Assembly: GCA_016926475.1 (NCBI GenBank)
Contig: JAFGON010000090.1
Coordinates: forward strand, 1-25,629
Source of the DNA: a candidate division WOR-3 bacterium
GTDB taxonomy: Bacteria > SDB-A
DNA: 25,629 nucleotides
Direction: 5' to 3'
The notes under the pieces were generated by a model that ran no database searches, was not told where the DNA came from, and worked only from the letters and a program-made list of their open reading frames with translations. This document shows, one piece after another, positions 8,135-16,761 of the stretch. The translations under genes and the position numbers were made by a program. Numbering within the stretch: the first letter of the stretch is position 1; every line of letters starts with the position of its first letter.

Positions 8135-10057
8135 TTAACTTTTTCGTATGACAAAACGGAGGTCTCCTTTTCGGACAGTTAATCCTTCGGCGTCAAAAAG
8201 GGCAAAAAGAAGTAGGCAAATTTTCCTGTTTCCTCCTATTAGATCTCTGAACTGAGCAACGGTCAAACCTCTATCGGAGTGCGAAATCTCTTTTGTTAAA
8301 GCTTTTTTTGCTTCTTCAACCGTTTTCGTGGAGATGTATTCTCCTTCAATCCTGTAGGCTTTTTTCTTGCTGACCAGGTAGTTGAGGACGAGATTAAGAT
8401 CTTTTTCCCCCATTTTGAACTTTGCAGCATGCTGAGCCAATTCTCCGTAGCGCGGTATTTTTAAACCGGCATCTTCAAGAAATTTTCCGACTATCCCTAC
8501 CCATTCGACCTGTTTTTGATCCATTTCTTCAGTTTCCCCGACCATGCTCCAGTTTTCTCCCTTTTTACCGACGATCCCGTTTTTTCTCAAATCATCAAGC
8601 AGTTTCAATATAAATTCACCGTAAACCTGGCCTTTTTTCGCAAAAGCGGAGTTTTTAATCTCGTCAGAAGTCGGGCCTCTGTTTAAAAGAGGATTTTTTT
8701 CAATAAAACTTCTAATAATTGCGGGTATCTTTTTTCTGACGGAGATTTCTTCATCTCTCTCTGCGAGTATAAAATCATTTTTGTGCGTGAAAACCGATAT
8801 TTTTTTTGTTTTTTCAACTTCCATCAGAATCTGGTTTTCGTGTACGTTCATAGACCTTGATATATTAGAAAGGCGGACAACCCCCCCTTTTTTACCGATT
8901 TCTTCATATATTGCCGCCGAAAAACCGCCCTCGGCAATTCTCGCAGTTTTTTTTCTTACCTTTTCGGTCCTTCTCCTGTGGTGCAGGGGATGAGAATCCG
9001 TAACGTACCCTCCTCCGAGCGTGCAATCGTCAGACGTGCTTCTTACAATAAATCTATCTCCATATCTCGTTACTACGGATTTAGACAATTGCAACTGAAC
9101 ATCAGCTGATTCGCCCGGTTTCAAGACATCAGCGGAAATAAGGTGTACTCTTGCCTGAAGTTCGTTTGTTCCGAGAAGAAATATCACATTCGACCACACT
9201 GGCAATTTTTTGACATCTTTGAACAATGTTATCCTGGAATCAATCATTCTTGTCTGTTCAAGAAGCCTGTTTGAAATCAGCGTACCCCTGACGAAATCCT
9301 CTCTTTCTAGGCCTACGAGATTAACCGACGCCCTGTCTCCCGTAAAAATTTCATCCGTCTCTTTTCCGTGCCTTTCCATCCGCCTTATCCTGAATTCCCG
9401 ACCTTTTCCGGGGATGAGAAAAACTTTCTCTTCCTTTTTGACCTTTCCTTCGACTACCGACCCAGTCAGGACACTCCCGAAACCCGGAATGCTGAAAATT
9501 CTGTCTGGATACATTCTGAAAATGCCTTCACCGGTTCTGGGTTCAGATATTTTTACCAGCTCGAATATTTCCCTTCTGAGTTCTTCAATACCTTGGCCTG
9601 TCACCGAAGAAACTCTGATTATCGGGCTTTTTTCGAGAAAAGTTCCCTTGATGAAAGATTTTATGTCCTCTTCCGCTATTTCAGCTGTCTCGGAATCTAC
9701 TGCGTCCACCTTGGTCATCGCCACAAGACCCTTTTCTATTCCGAGCGCTTGCATTATCCAAAGGTGTTCTCTTGTCTGGGGCATAATTCCACTGTCAGCT
9801 GAAATCGCCAAAAGGGCTATGTCTATTCCGCTCGCGCCCGAAACCATGGTGTGTATGAAATCTTTGTGCCCCGGCATGTCGACGATTCCGACAACTTCTC
9901 CCGAAGGAAAATCCAGATGCGCAAATCCCAGATGGATTGTTATTCCCCTTTTTTTCTCTTCATCATGGGTATCACAATCTATTCCCGTGAGAGCTTTCAC
10001 GAGCAGTGTTTTTCCGTGGTCTATATGCCCTGCCGTTCCAAGAATGAAGTGTTTCAA
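8135..10057 (-). CDS. selB: selenocysteine-specific elongation factor SelB
   Basis: The 640-residue GTPase delivers Sec-tRNA(Sec) to UGA codons and binds the SECIS RNA hairpin. The GTPase motifs are GHIDHGKT (10-17), the G2 region RGITIHLGF (37-45), DMPGHK (60-65) and TKVD (115-118). Beta-barrel domains follow, and the C-terminal third is a set of winged helices that bind SECIS in known SelB proteins. The length fits the family (about 610-640). The start ATG overlaps the selA stop by 4 bases (ATGA), so translation is coupled. The gene ends head-on against nfnB with no spacer and no visible terminator. Confidence 0.97.
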   Translation of the reverse strand: MKHFILGTAGHIDHGKTLLVKALTGIDCDTHDEEKKRGITIHLGFAHLDFPSGEVVGIVDMPGHKDFIHTMVSGASGIDIALLAISADSGIMPQTREHLWIMQALGIEKGLVAMTKVDAVDSETAEIAEEDIKSFIKGTFLEKSPIIRVSSVTGQGIEELRREIFELVKISEPRTGEGIFRMYPDRIFSIPGFGSVLTGSVVEGKVKKEEKVFLIPGKGREFRIRRMERHGKETDEIFTGDRASVNLVGLEREDFVRGTLISNRLLEQTRMIDSRITLFKDVKKLPVWSNVIFLLGTNELQARVHLISADVLKPGESADVQLQLSKSVVTRYGDRFIVRSTSDDCTLGGGYVTDSHPLHHRRRTEKVRKKTARIAEGGFSAAIYEEIGKKGGVVRLSNISRSMNVHENQILMEVEKTKKISVFTHKNDFILAERDEEISVRKKIPAIIRSFIEKNPLLNRGPTSDEIKNSAFAKKGQVYGEFILKLLDDLRKNGIVGKKGENWSMVGETEEMDQKQVEWVGIVGKFLEDAGLKIPRYGELAQHAAKFKMGEKDLNLVLNYLVSKKKAYRIEGEYISTKTVEEAKKALTKEISHSDRGLTVAQFRDLIGGNRKICLLLFALFDAEGLTVRKGDLRFVIRKS

Positions 10058-11421
10058 GATTTTCTCGTGTTTTCCGATTTGAAATAAACTTCGCTTATCG
10101 AATCAGCTATGTATTCAAAGTCTCTTTCTTTCAGAGTCAAAACATCGAAGACGAGTTCGCCTTTTCTGAGGACAGAAACTATGGGTTTTGAATTTCTCAT
10201 AAGGCTAAAAAACATTCTCTCGAGATTCTCTTTTCTCTTTTTTCCTTCCAATCTTATCGCAACACAGTAGCTCTCAATTTCAGTGTCTGTCAGGGAACCT
10301 CCTCCTGCCTTGCCCCGACTTTTTTCAACCCTTGAGTCAACTCCCTTCTTTTGCATCAACCCAGAGAGCTTTTCCGCTTTTTCCAGCAGCTCGCCAGACT
10401 TCGTTGAAGACATTTCTACTACAGGTATGTCTGTAAAATTTCCCGATTTTTCAGCGTGCCTTACAGCGACGGTTCCAAGGGCTGAAAGGGTCATTTTACC
10501 GACTCTAAGAGCTCTCATCATAGGAGCTTTTTTCAATTTTGCAATTTCTTCCTTATCGCCGCAAACGACACCCGCCTGAGGGCCTCCGAACAATTTATCG
10601 GCGCTGAAAGCGACAAAATCCGCTCCTGAAGCAACGGCTCTTTTTATGTCCGGTTCTTTTGAGAAAACATCGTTGATCTGACTGTCAGCGCAACCGGAAC
10701 CCAAATCGTAGAGAACCCGCAAATCAAATTTCCTTGCCAGCTCAACAATTTTTTCAAGAGGCGCTTCTTCCGTGAAACCTTTAATAACGTAATTCGACTT
10801 GTGAACTTTGAGAATCATAGCAGTTTTTGAATTTATTGCCTTTTCGTAATCTGAAAGCCTTGTCCTGTTTGTAGTGCCGACTTCGACCATTTTCGCACCC
10901 GATGCTTTTAGAATTTCCGGAATGCGGAAAGAGCCGCCAATTTCAACGAGCTCTCCACGCGACACCACAACTTCCTTTCTTTTTGCAAAAACGCTCAACG
11001 TCAGCATCAGACCAGCCGCGTTGTTATTTACCACTGCAACGCCGTCGGCGCCCGTGAGATATTTAAGAGTCTCCTCCACACATTTCGTCCGATTTCCTCT
11101 TCTCCCCTTATCCAGGTCGAATTCCAAATCGCAATATCCTGAAATCGCTTTTGAAATCTCGCGGACTATATCTTCTCCTAAAGGAGCCCTCCCCAGATTT
11201 GTGTGAATAATTATTCCTGTGGCATTTATGACTTCCTTGAGACCTGAATGGAATATCGATTGTATTTTACCTTTCGAAAGGTATTGGACTCTTTTTTCGA
11301 TATCGGCAACTTCATCTGTTTGTCCCATTCTTTTTATTTCGTCGAGGGCATACCTCACAGAATACAACACTGCTTCTCTTCCGTATTCTTTTTCGAGAGC
11401 AGAAATTTCCCGGATGTTCAA
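10054..11421 (-). CDS. selA: L-seryl-tRNA(Sec) selenium transferase SelA
   Basis: This PLP enzyme converts Ser-tRNA(Sec) to Sec-tRNA(Sec) using selenophosphate. Visible family features are INATGIIIHTNLGRAPL near 65-81, the Gly-rich NNNAAG near 132-137, and the PLP-lysine motif SADKLFGGPQAG (K276 counted from the TTG start). The listed start is TTG 11421. The conserved SelA N-terminal sequence KIPSVEKLL is encoded just upstream in frame, with no ATG, GTG or TTG before the in-frame TAA at 11488-11490, so translation may begin at an unusual codon such as ATT 11464-11466. The gene follows tRNA-Sec by about 70 bp on the same strand and is coupled to selB. No selD is present in the window. Confidence 0.95.
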   Translation of the reverse strand: MNIREISALEKEYGREAVLYSVRYALDEIKRMGQTDEVADIEKRVQYLSKGKIQSIFHSGLKEVINATGIIIHTNLGRAPLGEDIVREISKAISGYCDLEFDLDKGRRGNRTKCVEETLKYLTGADGVAVVNNNAAGLMLTLSVFAKRKEVVVSRGELVEIGGSFRIPEILKASGAKMVEVGTTNRTRLSDYEKAINSKTAMILKVHKSNYVIKGFTEEAPLEKIVELARKFDLRVLYDLGSGCADSQINDVFSKEPDIKRAVASGADFVAFSADKLFGGPQAGVVCGDKEEIAKLKKAPMMRALRVGKMTLSALGTVAVRHAEKSGNFTDIPVVEMSSTKSGELLEKAEKLSGLMQKKGVDSRVEKSRGKAGGGSLTDTEIESYCVAIRLEGKKRKENLERMFFSLMRNSKPIVSVLRKGELVFDVLTLKERDFEYIADSISEVYFKSENTRKS

Positions 11422-11465: not shown

Positions 11466-11494
11466 TAAAACACCATTTTTTTGAGTTTTAAGAA

Positions 11495-11586
11495 CAGAGA
11501 GGGCAGGAATCGAACCTGCCACGAACGGTTTTATCCGGCCGCTACTGGTTTTGAAGACCAGCTGAACCACCAGATCCTTCCTCTCC
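11495..11586 (-). tRNA. selC: tRNA-Sec, anticodon UCA
   Basis: On the minus strand the sequence folds as a long class II tRNA. The acceptor GGAGAGG pairs with CCTCTCT, a short D-arm follows (GGATC/GGTTC with loop TGGT), and the anticodon arm is CTGGT-CTTCAAA-ACCAG with anticodon TCA. It has a long variable arm and a T-arm GCAGG-TTCGATT-CCTGC. The anticodon arm and T-loop closely match bacterial tRNA-Sec. Adding C 11587 opposite G 11495 gives an eighth acceptor pair, as expected of bacterial tRNA-Sec, but leaves U as discriminator instead of the usual G. CCA is not encoded. It is directly upstream of selA. Confidence 0.93.
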
Positions 11587-11592
11587 GAAAAA

Positions 11593-11678: not shown

Positions 11679-11703
11679 CTTTACATGTAAAAAAGGAGTT
11701 TTT

Positions 11704-12894
11704 ATGGGCATACTTCTCGTCTTTATTTTCGTTGCCTTATGCGAAGGGGGAGTTTCACGTCAACTTGATATGAAATCACCTTCTTTACAAAGATCCGCTC
11801 ATGACAACAACAACCTCTGGACAGGACTTGACTTGGCTGGAGGAGACATCGGAAGCGCTACGGGACCTTCCATGCAGTTTCCCGGCGGGACTGGCATAAA
11901 CACCCTATACCAGGGTTGTCAGGCAATAGGCTTTTATAACGGCAGTTACCCGATTGTAGTCGGAACACAGCTCTGTTGAGGGGGCTTGACCGAATGGTCG
12001 GTTTCCCACAGTTCGTGGGAATGGATTGATGATTCTCTCTACAGAAGTTTTTACAGGCTGACAGACGTCTACCATGGCTCTCAGATTATAGTCGAAAGAT
12101 CCGGATTTTCTTGGTCTCAGGACATAAACGGTGACTTCATCTTATTTGTCAACAAGTTCATCAACACTTCCAGAGCATCATACGACAGCGTTTATACCGG
12201 GCTCTGGTACGACTTCGATATTCCTTCTACAGACTACATGAACGACTCGGCTGGCTACATACAGACTGTAAACCTATGCTATATGTCTGACGCAGCCGGT
12301 TATTCCCAGAAAATAGGGATATGTTTTTTACAGCCTTCTGCGCCTCATGGCGCAAACTGGTTCAACTACGCTACCACACCTGGGGACGACAACGCGTATT
12401 TTTCGGCGCTTCAAAACACGAGCGTCGCGACTGCCTGGCCTTCAGCTCCGTCTGATTACAAGATAATGATAAATTGCGGTCCCAACGCCCTGGGCGCGGG
12501 AGAAACTCTGACAATCGTCTACGGTGTAGTCGCTGGAAATGACGAAAGTGAACTCACCGCCGCTGTGACGAGAATGTCTTTTGTCTACGACAGTTTAAGC
12601 CTTTTTATAGAAGAACAGCCAATCGCTGAAAACACTCTGCGCCACTTATACATCCCAGGAAAATTCTTTACCGGCGATTTTTCAGCTCGTTTAACTGTCG
12701 GTCAAGATGAACCTGTCGAAGTCAAAGTGTTCGACATCCAGGGAAGAACCGTCCTCGATCTGGGTTTAATTCAAGCCAAAAAAGGCGAAAATCAAATATC
12801 CGTCAATGCGGGAAACCTCTGTGCCGGTCAATACTTTTTGAGGGTCACATCCTCCACCTTTGACTGGACTGAAAGGTTCGGCATTCTTGAGTAA
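11704..12894 (+). CDS. candidate secreted selenoprotein with T9SS-like sorting domain (UGA = Sec92)
   Basis: The frame from ATG 11704 (RBS AAGGAG, 5-base spacing) runs to TAA 12892-12894 with one interruption, TGA at 11977-11979, which would be Sec92 after Cys91 (QLC-U-GGLTEW). The product is 396 residues: a signal peptide at about 1-18 (hydrophobic MGILLVFIFVALC), an extracellular domain with several cysteines, and at about 316-396 a beta-sandwich like T9SS type A sorting domains (VKVFDIQGRTVLDL...AGQYFLRV). The part after UGA has no credible start: TTG 11986 lacks a spaced RBS, and no ATG is near. A hairpin at 12003-12021 suits a SECIS. The tRNA-Sec, selA and selB genes are adjacent and divergent. 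Alternatives are a nonsense-mutated pseudogene or a sequence error. I do not recognise the central domain, so the redox role of Cys-Sec is inference. Confidence 0.6.
12003..12021 (+). promoter_or_regulatory. candidate bacterial SECIS hairpin
   Basis: TTCCCAC (12003-12009) pairs perfectly with GTGGGAA (12015-12021) around the 5-base loop AGUUC. The apical loop starts 30 bases after the UGA codon, within the roughly 16-37 base range described for bacterial SECIS elements, and has a G in its first two positions, as required. A weaker hairpin (GACC-GAAT-GGTC, 11988-11999) lies too close to the UGA. Bacterial SECIS elements are translated, and this one encodes part of the protein. Confidence 0.5.
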
Positions 12895-12915: not shown

Positions 12916-15900
12916 TCAATATTGACGTGTAAGTTCAATTATCTTTTTTCTGAGCTCATTATCCGATGTTTTTTTGTCTTTCAATTGCTCGATAATTTTC
13001 CTCGCCGCTGCAATTTGTCCTGATTTCTCAAGAGCCGACGCGAGAGACACTGCCGCGTATAAAGTGTCTCCGTTATCCTCTCCCAGATTTTCTTTAAACA
13101 GTATATAGGAACGTTCAAAAAACTTTAACGCCTTTTTCATTTCGGATTTCTCCAAATAAATCTGTGCAATTGATCCGTAGACATACGCAGCATAAAAGCT
13201 TCTGACCCCGCAGGTTTTTTTGAATATCATCAGAGATACTTTAAAGAATTCAAGAGCCTTGTCGTAGTTTTTTTTTATAAACTCAATTTTACCGAGAAAG
13301 CTGTATGATATTGCTGAATCGGTGTTTTCTCTTTCTGCCCCTGTTTTGGTAAGTTTTAATACTCTCCTGTAACACTCGGCCGCCCTTCTGTAGTTTTTCT
13401 TCGAGAAATGGTTGTAGCCGAGATTGACATAAACTCTTATAGCGTCGGGAGATAAACCTAAACCCACTTTTCTGTAAATATCCGACGCTCTTATGAGATT
13501 TTTCCTCGCCTCTTCGTATTTTCCCATTTTGTTCAGCAGACCGCCTACGTTGTTCATGAGAAAAGCCACTTCTTTGTTTTTCGGACCGTAGATTTTCATA
13601 AACACTTCAAGCGATTTGAAATTGTAATGCGCTGATCTTTCATATTCTCCCAGGTAATAATACGCCACCCCGAGGTTGTTCAAAACGGAGGCAAACCTGT
13701 GGTCTTCGACAGCGCTCTCTTCTTTTACGAGCTGGACTGCTTTTTTAAGATAGAAAATAGCTTCCCTTGGTTCGCCTAGGTTTATGAGCGTGGATCCTAT
13801 GCTGTTCAACGCTTCAAATTCATCCTTTTTTCCAGACCTGCTTTTTTTTATCAAGTATAAATACCTCTTTCTGAATCTCAGGGATTTTTTGAAATTTTCC
13901 GAATTCGAGTAAACATCTCCGATTTCCTCAAAAACTTGATATTTTCTGCTTTCTTGTATTCTCCGAGGCCAAAGCTTAAAGGCGGTTTGAAAATGAGATA
14001 TCGCTTCTTCAAAATTTCCCTTCATTTTGCTGAGCTTACCCAACTTCATATAGATTCCGACAAGAAGAGGGATGTCTTTGAGTCCTGCCCTCTCGTATCT
14101 TACGAGCGAAGAAGTAAGGTAAAACTCGGCCTGTTTCAGTGAATTAGTGTTAAAAAGATCTTCTGCGATGTCGCACATCAAAGCGACTACTCGATTTTCG
14201 TTTTTTTCAGGGCTTTTTTCAAGACAATACAGGGCTTTTTCGGCAGAAAAAACCGCTTCTTCCGAATCGTATGACTCTCTGCAATGAATCGCCGCCTTCT
14301 GCCACCGCCCGAACGCTTTTTGGTATTCCTCGGCCATTTCGTAATGAAAGGCAATTTCTCTCTGTTTACGTCCCTCTTCACCGTAATTCTTTTCAAGCGC
14401 CGCCGCCGCACACCTGTGCTCAGACCAGAAGTTAGTCTGAGCCAGCATTTCTATGACAGTATCCCTGATCAAACTGTGCCTGAATTTGATTTTATTTCCT
14501 GAAATTTCTATCAATTTTTCTTTCTCAAAATAATCCAACGCTTTCTCCGTTACAAGTTTTGATCCGCTATTTATCATTGTGAGCAAATCTTCTTTTTCGA
14601 ACTCCTCTCCCATAACCGCGCAGGCGTTGAGAATCCTCCTGTACTCCGCTACTGTTCTGTCAATTCTTCCGGCGATTACAGAAAACATGCTTCCAGAGAT
14701 TGCTGCTTCATCACCCGAAAACGTCAATTTCCCCTTTTTAAAGACTGTAAGTCCGGATATTTTCATAAACCTGCAGAGTTCTTCTATTAACATCGGGTTT
14801 CCCAAAGTCTTTCTGCATATGAACTTTTGGAGCTTTCTGTCTATTCTTCTTCCGAAAACGGTTTCAGCCGCAAATATAGTCTTTTCTCTGCTCAGTTTGT
14901 CGAGTTTGAAATGAAATGGCTTTATACCATGGAATTTCCCCAGAACTGAAAATTCTCCAGAAGCTGTAAATACAAAAACAGTTCTTTTGAACGATTCATA
15001 GTCGAGCATTTTTCTGATCAGTTCCAAAGTCGCAAAGTCAAATTTGTCTGCGTCATCGAATAAGAACAGGCACTTTTTTTCTGCCGCGAAAAAAGACAGA
15101 AAACCAATCACCGATAGAAGAATATGTTCTTGCCTTTTCTTCGGGTCTATTTTTTCAAGAAAAGACCGGTATTTCATGATTCCGCACATACAGCCGATAA
15201 AAGGTTCAAGCGATTTTAATTCTTCATTCAACTCAAAGTATTTCTCGCTTTTTTTTCCCCGCGACAAGAAACCTTTCACGATCTGGGCATACTTCACTTC
15301 AAACATCTCTTTTCCGGTATCAGGTCTCAAACCTGCGGGGACCATGAAAGTCTCAGAAAAAAAATCCTTAAAAGGCTGAAAAGCGTCCTTTTTAAATTCG
15401 CCGCCTTTGAAATTGATTACGGGATACTTTCCTTTAACCGATGCGGATAAACCCTCGAGAACCGAACTTTTCCCCATCCCGTTTTCTCCTGAGACCAATA
15501 TAATTGTCCTGTCCTTAGTCTCCCTGGCAATACCGGATATCTTTGATATAAAATCTTTTCTCATTTCGGAGCCAAGTTTCTTCCCTCCTTTTTCTTTCTT
15601 TAAAAGGTTCTGAATTTCAACTTTATCACGGATTCCTTTGAATCTGCGTTTTTGGAAAAACTCAAAAGTGAATTTATCTCTCAGCCCGGCGGTTGTCACG
15701 GCGTCAAAAAGGCATTCTCCTTTTTTTGCCGTTTTTAAGATTCTCGAGGACAGGTTCACCGCTTCCCCGTTCACTGCGTATCTGTCTTTGGCTCCCGCAG
15801 AGAAATAACCGGTGAATATTTTTCCGAATACGCACGATGAAAAGGACCTGCCCTGATACCTTTCTCTCGCCTCGAGCATAAACTCACATGCTCTTCTGAG

Positions 15901-16761
15901 GTCAGAGCCCCTCGAAAGCGGTGCTCCGAAGAGGATGAAATATACGATACCGTCCTTCGTTGCTTCGACGTCATTTAAGTTGCCTCCGAAATCGCATGAC
16001 ATTCGGATTATGTCTTCGGATAAGAGACTCATTTCATTTTCTTTAATCACCCTTTTTATTTTCAGGAAGACACACCCGGCTTGCCTGAATTCACTCGACG
16101 GTCTTCCCTCTCTCGACTTTGCAAAATCGTTTTCCCTCAAGAAAACAGGTTTAATTGTCTTTTTCAGCCTATCTTCCAGCAAGTATGTTCTTTTTCCGAT
16201 GCTTTCTTTAATTCGGTATTCAAGATCTGTTTCATAAATACCACCCCCATCAAAACTGACGCTCAATTCGCCCGGAGGCGTTGATTCCTGCGCCGAAAGG
16301 CTCAAGAAGACCGCGTCTCCCGTGAATACGCAAAATTCTTTCCCCTTTTCCCCGAACGCAAACCATGACAAGCTTCCTTCAGTCGCTGAGGTTCTGAGCA
16401 GTACGCTCGATTCCCCTTCAGGGGTCAGAAACTTTGCCCTCTCAATCTTATTTTTTATTTCTGATCCTGCTCTGACGGCATTTTTCAAGGAATCCCGGCC
16501 GGGAAAAACCGAAGTATACGAATCGCCTGAAAGAGAGACGACTTGACCGCCGAACTTTTTTGTATTTCTGAAAACTGTTTCGTAGAAGTAATCCAACAAA
16601 AAAGTTATGATTCGGACGCCTTTTTTCCCGTGTCTCGACAGGCTTTCAGTCAGGCCAGTAAAACCGACTATATCGGAGCTGACAACAGATCCTTCGAAAC
16701 TGCCTGATTTAGAGCCGGCGAGTATTTTTTTCTCGAGAAATTGAGGAGTTGAACCGCGCAT
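12916..16761 (-). CDS. tandem class III cyclase / AAA-type ATPase / TPR protein (soluble adenylyl cyclase-like)
   Basis: The 1281-residue cytosolic protein has two cyclase homology domains (about 22-165 and 228-385), an ATPase module with P-loop GENGMGKSS (425-433) and Walker B LFLFDD (565-570), a winged-helix-like segment, and from about 780 to the end many TPR units. The order matches mammalian soluble adenylyl cyclase and bacterial cyclase-ATPase-TPR proteins. The first domain keeps the two metal-binding aspartates (D30 in SSDIVGFTG, D80 in SLSGDSY) but lacks the Asn/Arg pair. The second keeps Asn336 and Arg340 (GEAVNLSSR) but lacks the first Asp. The halves could make one composite site, or the protein may be a non-catalytic signalling scaffold. 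It is 12 bp downstream of the HD-domain gene and convergent with the selenoprotein gene (21-bp gap). Confidence 0.85.
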   Translation of the reverse strand: MRGSTPQFLEKKILAGSKSGSFEGSVVSSDIVGFTGLTESLSRHGKKGVRIITFLLDYFYETVFRNTKKFGGQVVSLSGDSYTSVFPGRDSLKNAVRAGSEIKNKIERAKFLTPEGESSVLLRTSATEGSLSWFAFGEKGKEFCVFTGDAVFLSLSAQESTPPGELSVSFDGGGIYETDLEYRIKESIGKRTYLLEDRLKKTIKPVFLRENDFAKSREGRPSSEFRQAGCVFLKIKRVIKENEMSLLSEDIIRMSCDFGGNLNDVEATKDGIVYFILFGAPLSRGSDLRRACEFMLEARERYQGRSFSSCVFGKIFTGYFSAGAKDRYAVNGEAVNLSSRILKTAKKGECLFDAVTTAGLRDKFTFEFFQKRRFKGIRDKVEIQNLLKKEKGGKKLGSEMRKDFISKISGIARETKDRTIILVSGENGMGKSSVLEGLSASVKGKYPVINFKGGEFKKDAFQPFKDFFSETFMVPAGLRPDTGKEMFEVKYAQIVKGFLSRGKKSEKYFELNEELKSLEPFIGCMCGIMKYRSFLEKIDPKKRQEHILLSVIGFLSFFAAEKKCLFLFDDADKFDFATLELIRKMLDYESFKRTVFVFTASGEFSVLGKFHGIKPFHFKLDKLSREKTIFAAETVFGRRIDRKLQKFICRKTLGNPMLIEELCRFMKISGLTVFKKGKLTFSGDEAAISGSMFSVIAGRIDRTVAEYRRILNACAVMGEEFEKEDLLTMINSGSKLVTEKALDYFEKEKLIEISGNKIKFRHSLIRDTVIEMLAQTNFWSEHRCAAAALEKNYGEEGRKQREIAFHYEMAEEYQKAFGRWQKAAIHCRESYDSEEAVFSAEKALYCLEKSPEKNENRVVALMCDIAEDLFNTNSLKQAEFYLTSSLVRYERAGLKDIPLLVGIYMKLGKLSKMKGNFEEAISHFQTAFKLWPRRIQESRKYQVFEEIGDVYSNSENFKKSLRFRKRYLYLIKKSRSGKKDEFEALNSIGSTLINLGEPREAIFYLKKAVQLVKEESAVEDHRFASVLNNLGVAYYYLGEYERSAHYNFKSLEVFMKIYGPKNKEVAFLMNNVGGLLNKMGKYEEARKNLIRASDIYRKVGLGLSPDAIRVYVNLGYNHFSKKNYRRAAECYRRVLKLTKTGAERENTDSAISYSFLGKIEFIKKNYDKALEFFKVSLMIFKKTCGVRSFYAAYVYGSIAQIYLEKSEMKKALKFFERSYILFKENLGEDNGDTLYAAVSLASALEKSGQIAAARKIIEQLKDKKTSDNELRKKIIELTRQY

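Follow-up and report, generated by a model that had tools for sequence, protein, structure and literature searches.

A very probable new selenoprotein family with a type IX secretion sorting domain, encoded beside tRNA-Sec in a candidate division WOR-3 bacterium

The gene and its genomic neighborhood

The 25,629-nucleotide stretch of DNA from a candidate division WOR-3 bacterium that we analyzed (the window) carries, next to a set of genes for selenocysteine (Sec) insertion, a reading frame of 396 codons that is interrupted by a single UGA and is otherwise open. The features of this locus are as follows.

8135 to 10057, minus strand: selB, Sec-specific elongation factor (open reading frame with an EF-Tu-like GTPase start, GTAGHIDHGKT)
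10054 to 11421, minus strand: selA, selenocysteine synthase (open reading frame and sequence; start as listed, it may lie elsewhere)
11494 to 11587, minus strand: tRNA-Sec with the anticodon UCA (ARAGORN; Rfam RF01852, 59.3 bits)
11695 to 11698, plus strand: Shine-Dalgarno motif GGAG, 5 nt upstream of the ATG
11704 to 12894, plus strand: very probable selenoprotein gene, member 'a' of the new family
11704 to 11748, plus strand: N-terminal hydrophobic helix, putative signal peptide (residues 1-15; predicted helix 2-15)
11803 to 12612, plus strand: predicted beta-supersandwich core domain (residues 34-303; AlphaFold2 model, best PDB match 4zle)
11977 to 11979, plus strand: UGA, very probably selenocysteine (residue 92), preceded by TGT (Cys91)
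12003 to 12021, plus strand: SECIS-like hairpin UUCCCAC-AGUUC-GUGGGAA
12691 to 12879, plus strand: T9SS type-A C-terminal sorting domain (residues 330-392; TIGR04183, PF18962)

The gene terminates with a TAA (12892-12894), and purine-rich motifs of the GGAG type also precede most of the homologous ATGs described below. TGA ends nine of the 18 likely genes in the window; UGA is therefore a normal stop in this genome. The initial annotation, made from the sequence alone, had claimed an ATG with a ribosome-binding site, a lone TGA at codon 92, the use of TGA as the normal stop of at least nine other genes under a code that is not reassigned, and a position abutting the tRNA-Sec/selA/selB unit; all of this held.

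We compared the window's genome (G000) with three other genomes of its phylum, two of which share its genus and one its family. tRNA-Sec is present in all four, and in each of them it is adjoined by a gene of the subgroup to which the window copy belongs (subgroup a; in G001 and G002 at contig ends). The neighboring genes, which we take to be selA and selB, were named from recognized sequence, with no profile search behind the names; they are found in G000 and in G003, where they come next in the same order as in the window. The window's genome encodes two SelD proteins (loci L047:304-2538 and L048:1444-2514), one a Cys-bearing cysteine desulfurase-SelD fusion, the other a stand-alone protein in which a UGA of its own occupies the known Sec position (SEKAGUAAK). 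The gene for the Sec-bearing SelD adjoins those for a YedE-like transporter and another desulfurase. On the other side of the selenoprotein gene, and ending just downstream of it, lies a gene on the minus strand (12916-16761) for a protein of 1281 residues that apparently contains a nucleotide-cyclase-like domain, an ATPase and tetratricopeptide repeats; a homologue is likewise placed in G002 (L040).

Conservation of the in-frame UGA

A search of the window's genome with the read-through protein recovered the window gene itself together with two paralogues at 35% and 33% identity to it, each with exactly one in-frame TGA, and the other three genomes of the phylum contributed six further homologues with exactly one in-frame TGA each. 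In all nine the in-frame stop is TGA, it always falls into the same alignment column, the residues flanking it are conserved, and no other stop or frameshift is present in any of the nine frames. The homologues share 31-71% protein identity with the window copy, and synonymous divergence is close to saturation or past it. A UGA column common to nine homologues from four genomes is far beyond chance, and an unselected stop would not be expected to remain UGA in nine copies over such divergence.

The residues around this column sort the family into three subgroups, with the motifs LCUGGL(T/S)EW in subgroup a, (L/I)CUHM(I/L)NEW in subgroup b and GGNUGSALNW in subgroup c, the last of which was seen only in the window's genome. 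Cys precedes Sec in eight of the nine members, and Asn takes its place in paralogue c; the Cys-Sec pair proposed in the initial annotation is thus common but not invariant. As an observation on gene order, in each of the three same-genus genomes the next gene after that of subgroup b encodes a surface protein resembling a parallel beta-helix (L038:1636-3123, L041:3-1298 and L043:45-1529).

Past the UGA, the reading frame is subject to purifying selection: among close pairs, the dN/dS values that could be obtained for this part are about 0.05-0.14 and resemble those of the part before it. With synonymous sites close to or past saturation, the estimators failed for some pairs. We conclude that what lies distal to the UGA is functional and is translated in continuation of the proximal part.

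These data bear on two alternative views of the locus. According to the first, the gene is a pseudogene, the UGA is a sequencing error, or UGA is generally reassigned, and it is true that this is how a single assembly with a lone in-frame stop could look. However, nine copies in four assemblies carry the UGA in one column and are under purifying selection past it, which excludes a chance stop, a frameshift pseudogene or a sequencing error, and the termination of nine of the 18 window genes by UGA speaks against a general reassignment. We consider this group of explanations to be all but eliminated.

According to the second, two products are made: the UGA would truly terminate a peptide of 91 residues, and translation of the downstream part would begin at its own start or through termination-reinitiation. 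An ATG located two codons past the UGA in subgroup b could be taken in favor of this proposal. However, subgroup a has only TTG or GTG there and subgroup c has no start near the UGA, none of the nine copies has TAA or TAG in place of UGA, one predicted domain fold spans both halves, and a fragment of 91 residues would be without the sorting tail. Two separate products are consequently most improbable.

With respect to the initial annotation, its statement that the downstream 304 codons lack a usable start holds for the window copy and not, given the ATG in subgroup b, for the entire family. As support it had asked for homologues in which a UGA occupies this position between conserved flanks, and eight of these were found. 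Neither a close relative with a sense codon at this position (among nine copies from four genomes) nor, as judged by dN/dS, relaxed selection past the UGA was seen, both of which it had listed as refuting signs; a third, a different base upon re-sequencing, is met by the independent assemblies, which rule out a base-call error.

A putative recoding signal downstream of the UGA

Within the 20 codons that follow the UGA, synonymous identity amounts to 0.66 versus 0.42 elsewhere; none of 221 non-overlapping windows reaches this value (column-permutation p about 0.001), and the excess constraint is present in subgroups a and b. Over the 51 nt that follow the UGA, the RNA folds more stably than synonymous shuffles do (mean z -1.85, compared with -0.15 at other positions used as control); as the sequences are related and hence not independent, we claim no exact p value.

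The published bacterial SECIS model calls for a stem of 4-16 bp, a loop of 3-9 nt with a G in its first two positions, a spacing of 16-37 nt and an energy of -7.5 or lower. The hairpin in the window copy, located in the segment of excess synonymous conservation, meets these constraints with 7 bp, the 5-nt loop AGUUC with G at position 2, a loop that begins at a distance of 30 nt from the UGA and an energy of -9.5 kcal/mol; of the background positions in these genes, 2.6% also satisfy them. When the energy limit is strictly applied, only two of the nine copies qualify, that of the window and G003a. Three others (G001a, G002a and G003b) possess the same hairpin and spacing with an energy slightly above the limit, and the remaining subgroup b copies have at the same place an atypical structure with a stem of 10-11 bp and a larger loop of 10-12 nt. 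Covariation in the hairpin was not significant in our tests.

We infer with considerable confidence that tRNA-Sec and SelB would read the UGA as selenocysteine, with the downstream hairpin helping. In the absence of expression data, we regard it as very likely, and as close to certain as is attainable short of an experiment, that the gene at 11704-12894 encodes a selenoprotein.

Export through a type IX secretion system

The C-terminal tail of the window protein scores above both curated cut-offs for sorting domains (TIGR04183, 28.8 bits against a cut-off of 23; PF18962, 27.3 against 27), so that the T9SS-like sorting domain noted in the initial annotation held up. TIGR04183 is matched by all nine members of the family, and SprA, the outer-membrane translocon of the T9SS, exceeds the TIGR04189 cut-off in all four genomes. 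Hydrophobic N-termini are likewise common to the nine proteins; in the window copy no basic residue lies ahead of the hydrophobic stretch, and the signal peptide that had been annotated there remains putative. Since sorting domains, SprA and hydrophobic N-termini occur together in this way, export via the Sec pathway and the T9SS is likely, an inference from domains that has not been shown. Directed by the putative signal peptide and the type-A sorting domain, the protein would pass the Sec translocon and the T9SS and reach the cell surface or the outside.

Predicted fold of the core domain and its distant relatives

Neither Pfam nor a sequence search of the PDB yielded anything convincing for the core domain. 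An AlphaFold2 model, computed from an alignment of five sequences (mean pLDDT 68), predicts a beta-supersandwich whose residues 34-303 superimpose onto the N-terminal domain of a GH94 cellobionic acid phosphorylase (4zle; Z 17.5, rmsd 3.5 over 232 residues). The likeness includes the helix that follows the supersandwich. The differences from GH94 phosphorylases are substantial: sequence identity is about 11%, the enzymes have no Sec, and their catalytic (alpha/alpha)6 barrel is absent from the window protein, in which the T9SS tail follows the supersandwich instead. An identity as a GH94-type phosphorylase was rejected: with the supersandwich and the sorting domain the protein is complete, and the required catalytic barrel is lacking. 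Sec92 is placed in a predicted loop between the strands formed by residues 82-87 and 98-108; residues 90-96 have a pLDDT below 50.

Profile searches found the same domain at the C-terminus of subtilase-like T9SS/dockerin proteins from other phyla (L084, L089 and L098; best E 2e-21). These domains share with the new family the pattern YPxGS...LYxGxxxxG...VS...DF but have neither a UGA in the loop nor the HxNNNLWT motif. At the place of Sec, the distant relatives possess a variable loop that is mostly devoid of Cys. In two of them, from two species of one genus, a Cys-Cys pair occurs in the matching loop at an offset of four residues from Sec; the subtilase-like proteins L098 and L118, from one genus of another phylum, read N(E/D)FCCFPQ in this loop. 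No one-to-one counterpart with Cys was found for the family, which is unusual for selenoproteins.

Separately, a distant homologue of the domain from another phylum (L101:1372-2964; G060:C1:642329-643921) contains a single in-frame UGA (PADCGPTDVUEWYMDDLC) at a place different from the family column, in a genome with a tRNA-Sec of 65.8 bits. It may be an independent selenoprotein or a pseudogene; both remain possibilities, as only one genome of its phylum was examined.

Relationship to known selenoproteins

The prokaryotic catalogue of May 2026 lists 119 selenoprotein families and subfamilies (Zhang et al., 2026, PMC13188914). In none of them is a T9SS sorting domain present or a beta-supersandwich described, and none of the Pfam/NCBIfam domain identifiers listed there is matched by the window protein. 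The literature that we searched contained nothing relevant on a selenoprotein with a T9SS, a sorting domain or a WOR-3 origin. The absence of a catalogue match and of a T9SS selenoprotein in the texts searched leads us to consider the protein the representative of a new family, in agreement with the initial annotation, which knew of no selenoprotein family with such an architecture. NCBI protein records were outside our search, and an unpublished annotation can consequently not be excluded.

With this reservation, it is the protein and the way in which it is exported that are new; decoding follows a known mechanism. The catalogue families are alike in their in-frame UGA, their tRNA-Sec/SelA/SelB/SelD and their downstream stem-loop, and CU motifs also occur among them in SaoL, SaoC, HgcA, MbdU and KCU-star (PMC13188914). 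Selenoproteins of the TonB-dependent receptor FCYXU type and the MtrB/PioB type likewise have a location in the cell envelope, but these are by name outer-membrane barrels rather than secreted T9SS cargo and have no sequence match to the window protein.

The usual route to new selenoprotein families is a UGA opposite a Cys in known families. As the present family has no clear Cys homologue, it would be missed by discovery of this type, and standard annotation would truncate or split such genes.

Proposed function

Taken as one joint reading, we hold it very likely that the locus encodes a selenoprotein of a new family that is exported by the T9SS and consists of a supersandwich with a Sec-bearing loop. 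Outside the cell, it would fold into a small beta-supersandwich whose Sec sits in a loop, in most members as part of a vicinal Cys-Sec pair, and the invariant residues of the HxNNNLWT motif may, together with conserved W, H and R residues, form a site around it. This would extend selenium chemistry to proteins with type IX secretion tails and to a fold resembling that of carbohydrate enzymes.

What the selenocysteine does is far less certain. Most selenoproteins are redox-active, and a selenylsulfide can arise between vicinal Cys and Sec. On this ground we infer a redox center, most likely one that cycles between a selenylsulfide and the selenol/thiol form; this is inference only, and we would put its chances at no better and no worse than those of its being wrong. 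Such a center would reduce or exchange disulfides or detoxify oxidants extracellularly. Given the Asn in place of Cys91 in paralogue c, a Cys-Sec selenylsulfide cannot be universal in the family.

The main rival to the redox proposal accepts the selenoprotein and sees in it a surface-binding protein whose Sec is a ligand for metals or metalloids (Hg, Cu, As or Se species, for instance). It is favored by the vicinal CU motifs of metal-related families, namely the MerB-like SaoL, HgcA and the metal-binding MbdU (PMC13188914), and by the single isolated domain without a cofactor-binding motif. Against it stand the lack of a conserved Cys/His cluster besides Sec and the fact that no metal-resistance or methylation genes were noticed beside the inspected loci. 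It is a possibility that we keep in mind.

A bolder version of our preferred reading, that of an exported new-family selenoprotein, can be formulated as well: a lineage-specific surface protein with a structural beta-supersandwich would have gained its loop Sec without passing through a one-to-one Cys stage. The arguments for and against it are, in our estimation, nearly balanced, with a slight lean against it. If true, T9SS-delivered extracellular selenium chemistry, be it redox or metalloid binding, would exist outside every known selenoprotein fold.

The host phylum has almost no cultured members, and the conserved place of the gene beside tRNA-Sec suggests that the family helps to keep the selenocysteine trait in this lineage. 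As a minor observation, the genome deposited as 'Desulfuromonas sp. SDB' (L051, L053; LKUE01) falls into one family with a WOR-3 metagenome-assembled genome among those compared here and possesses the same selA/selB/tRNA-Sec/selenoprotein block; on account of this grouping and the shared block, its NCBI genus name is probably wrong.
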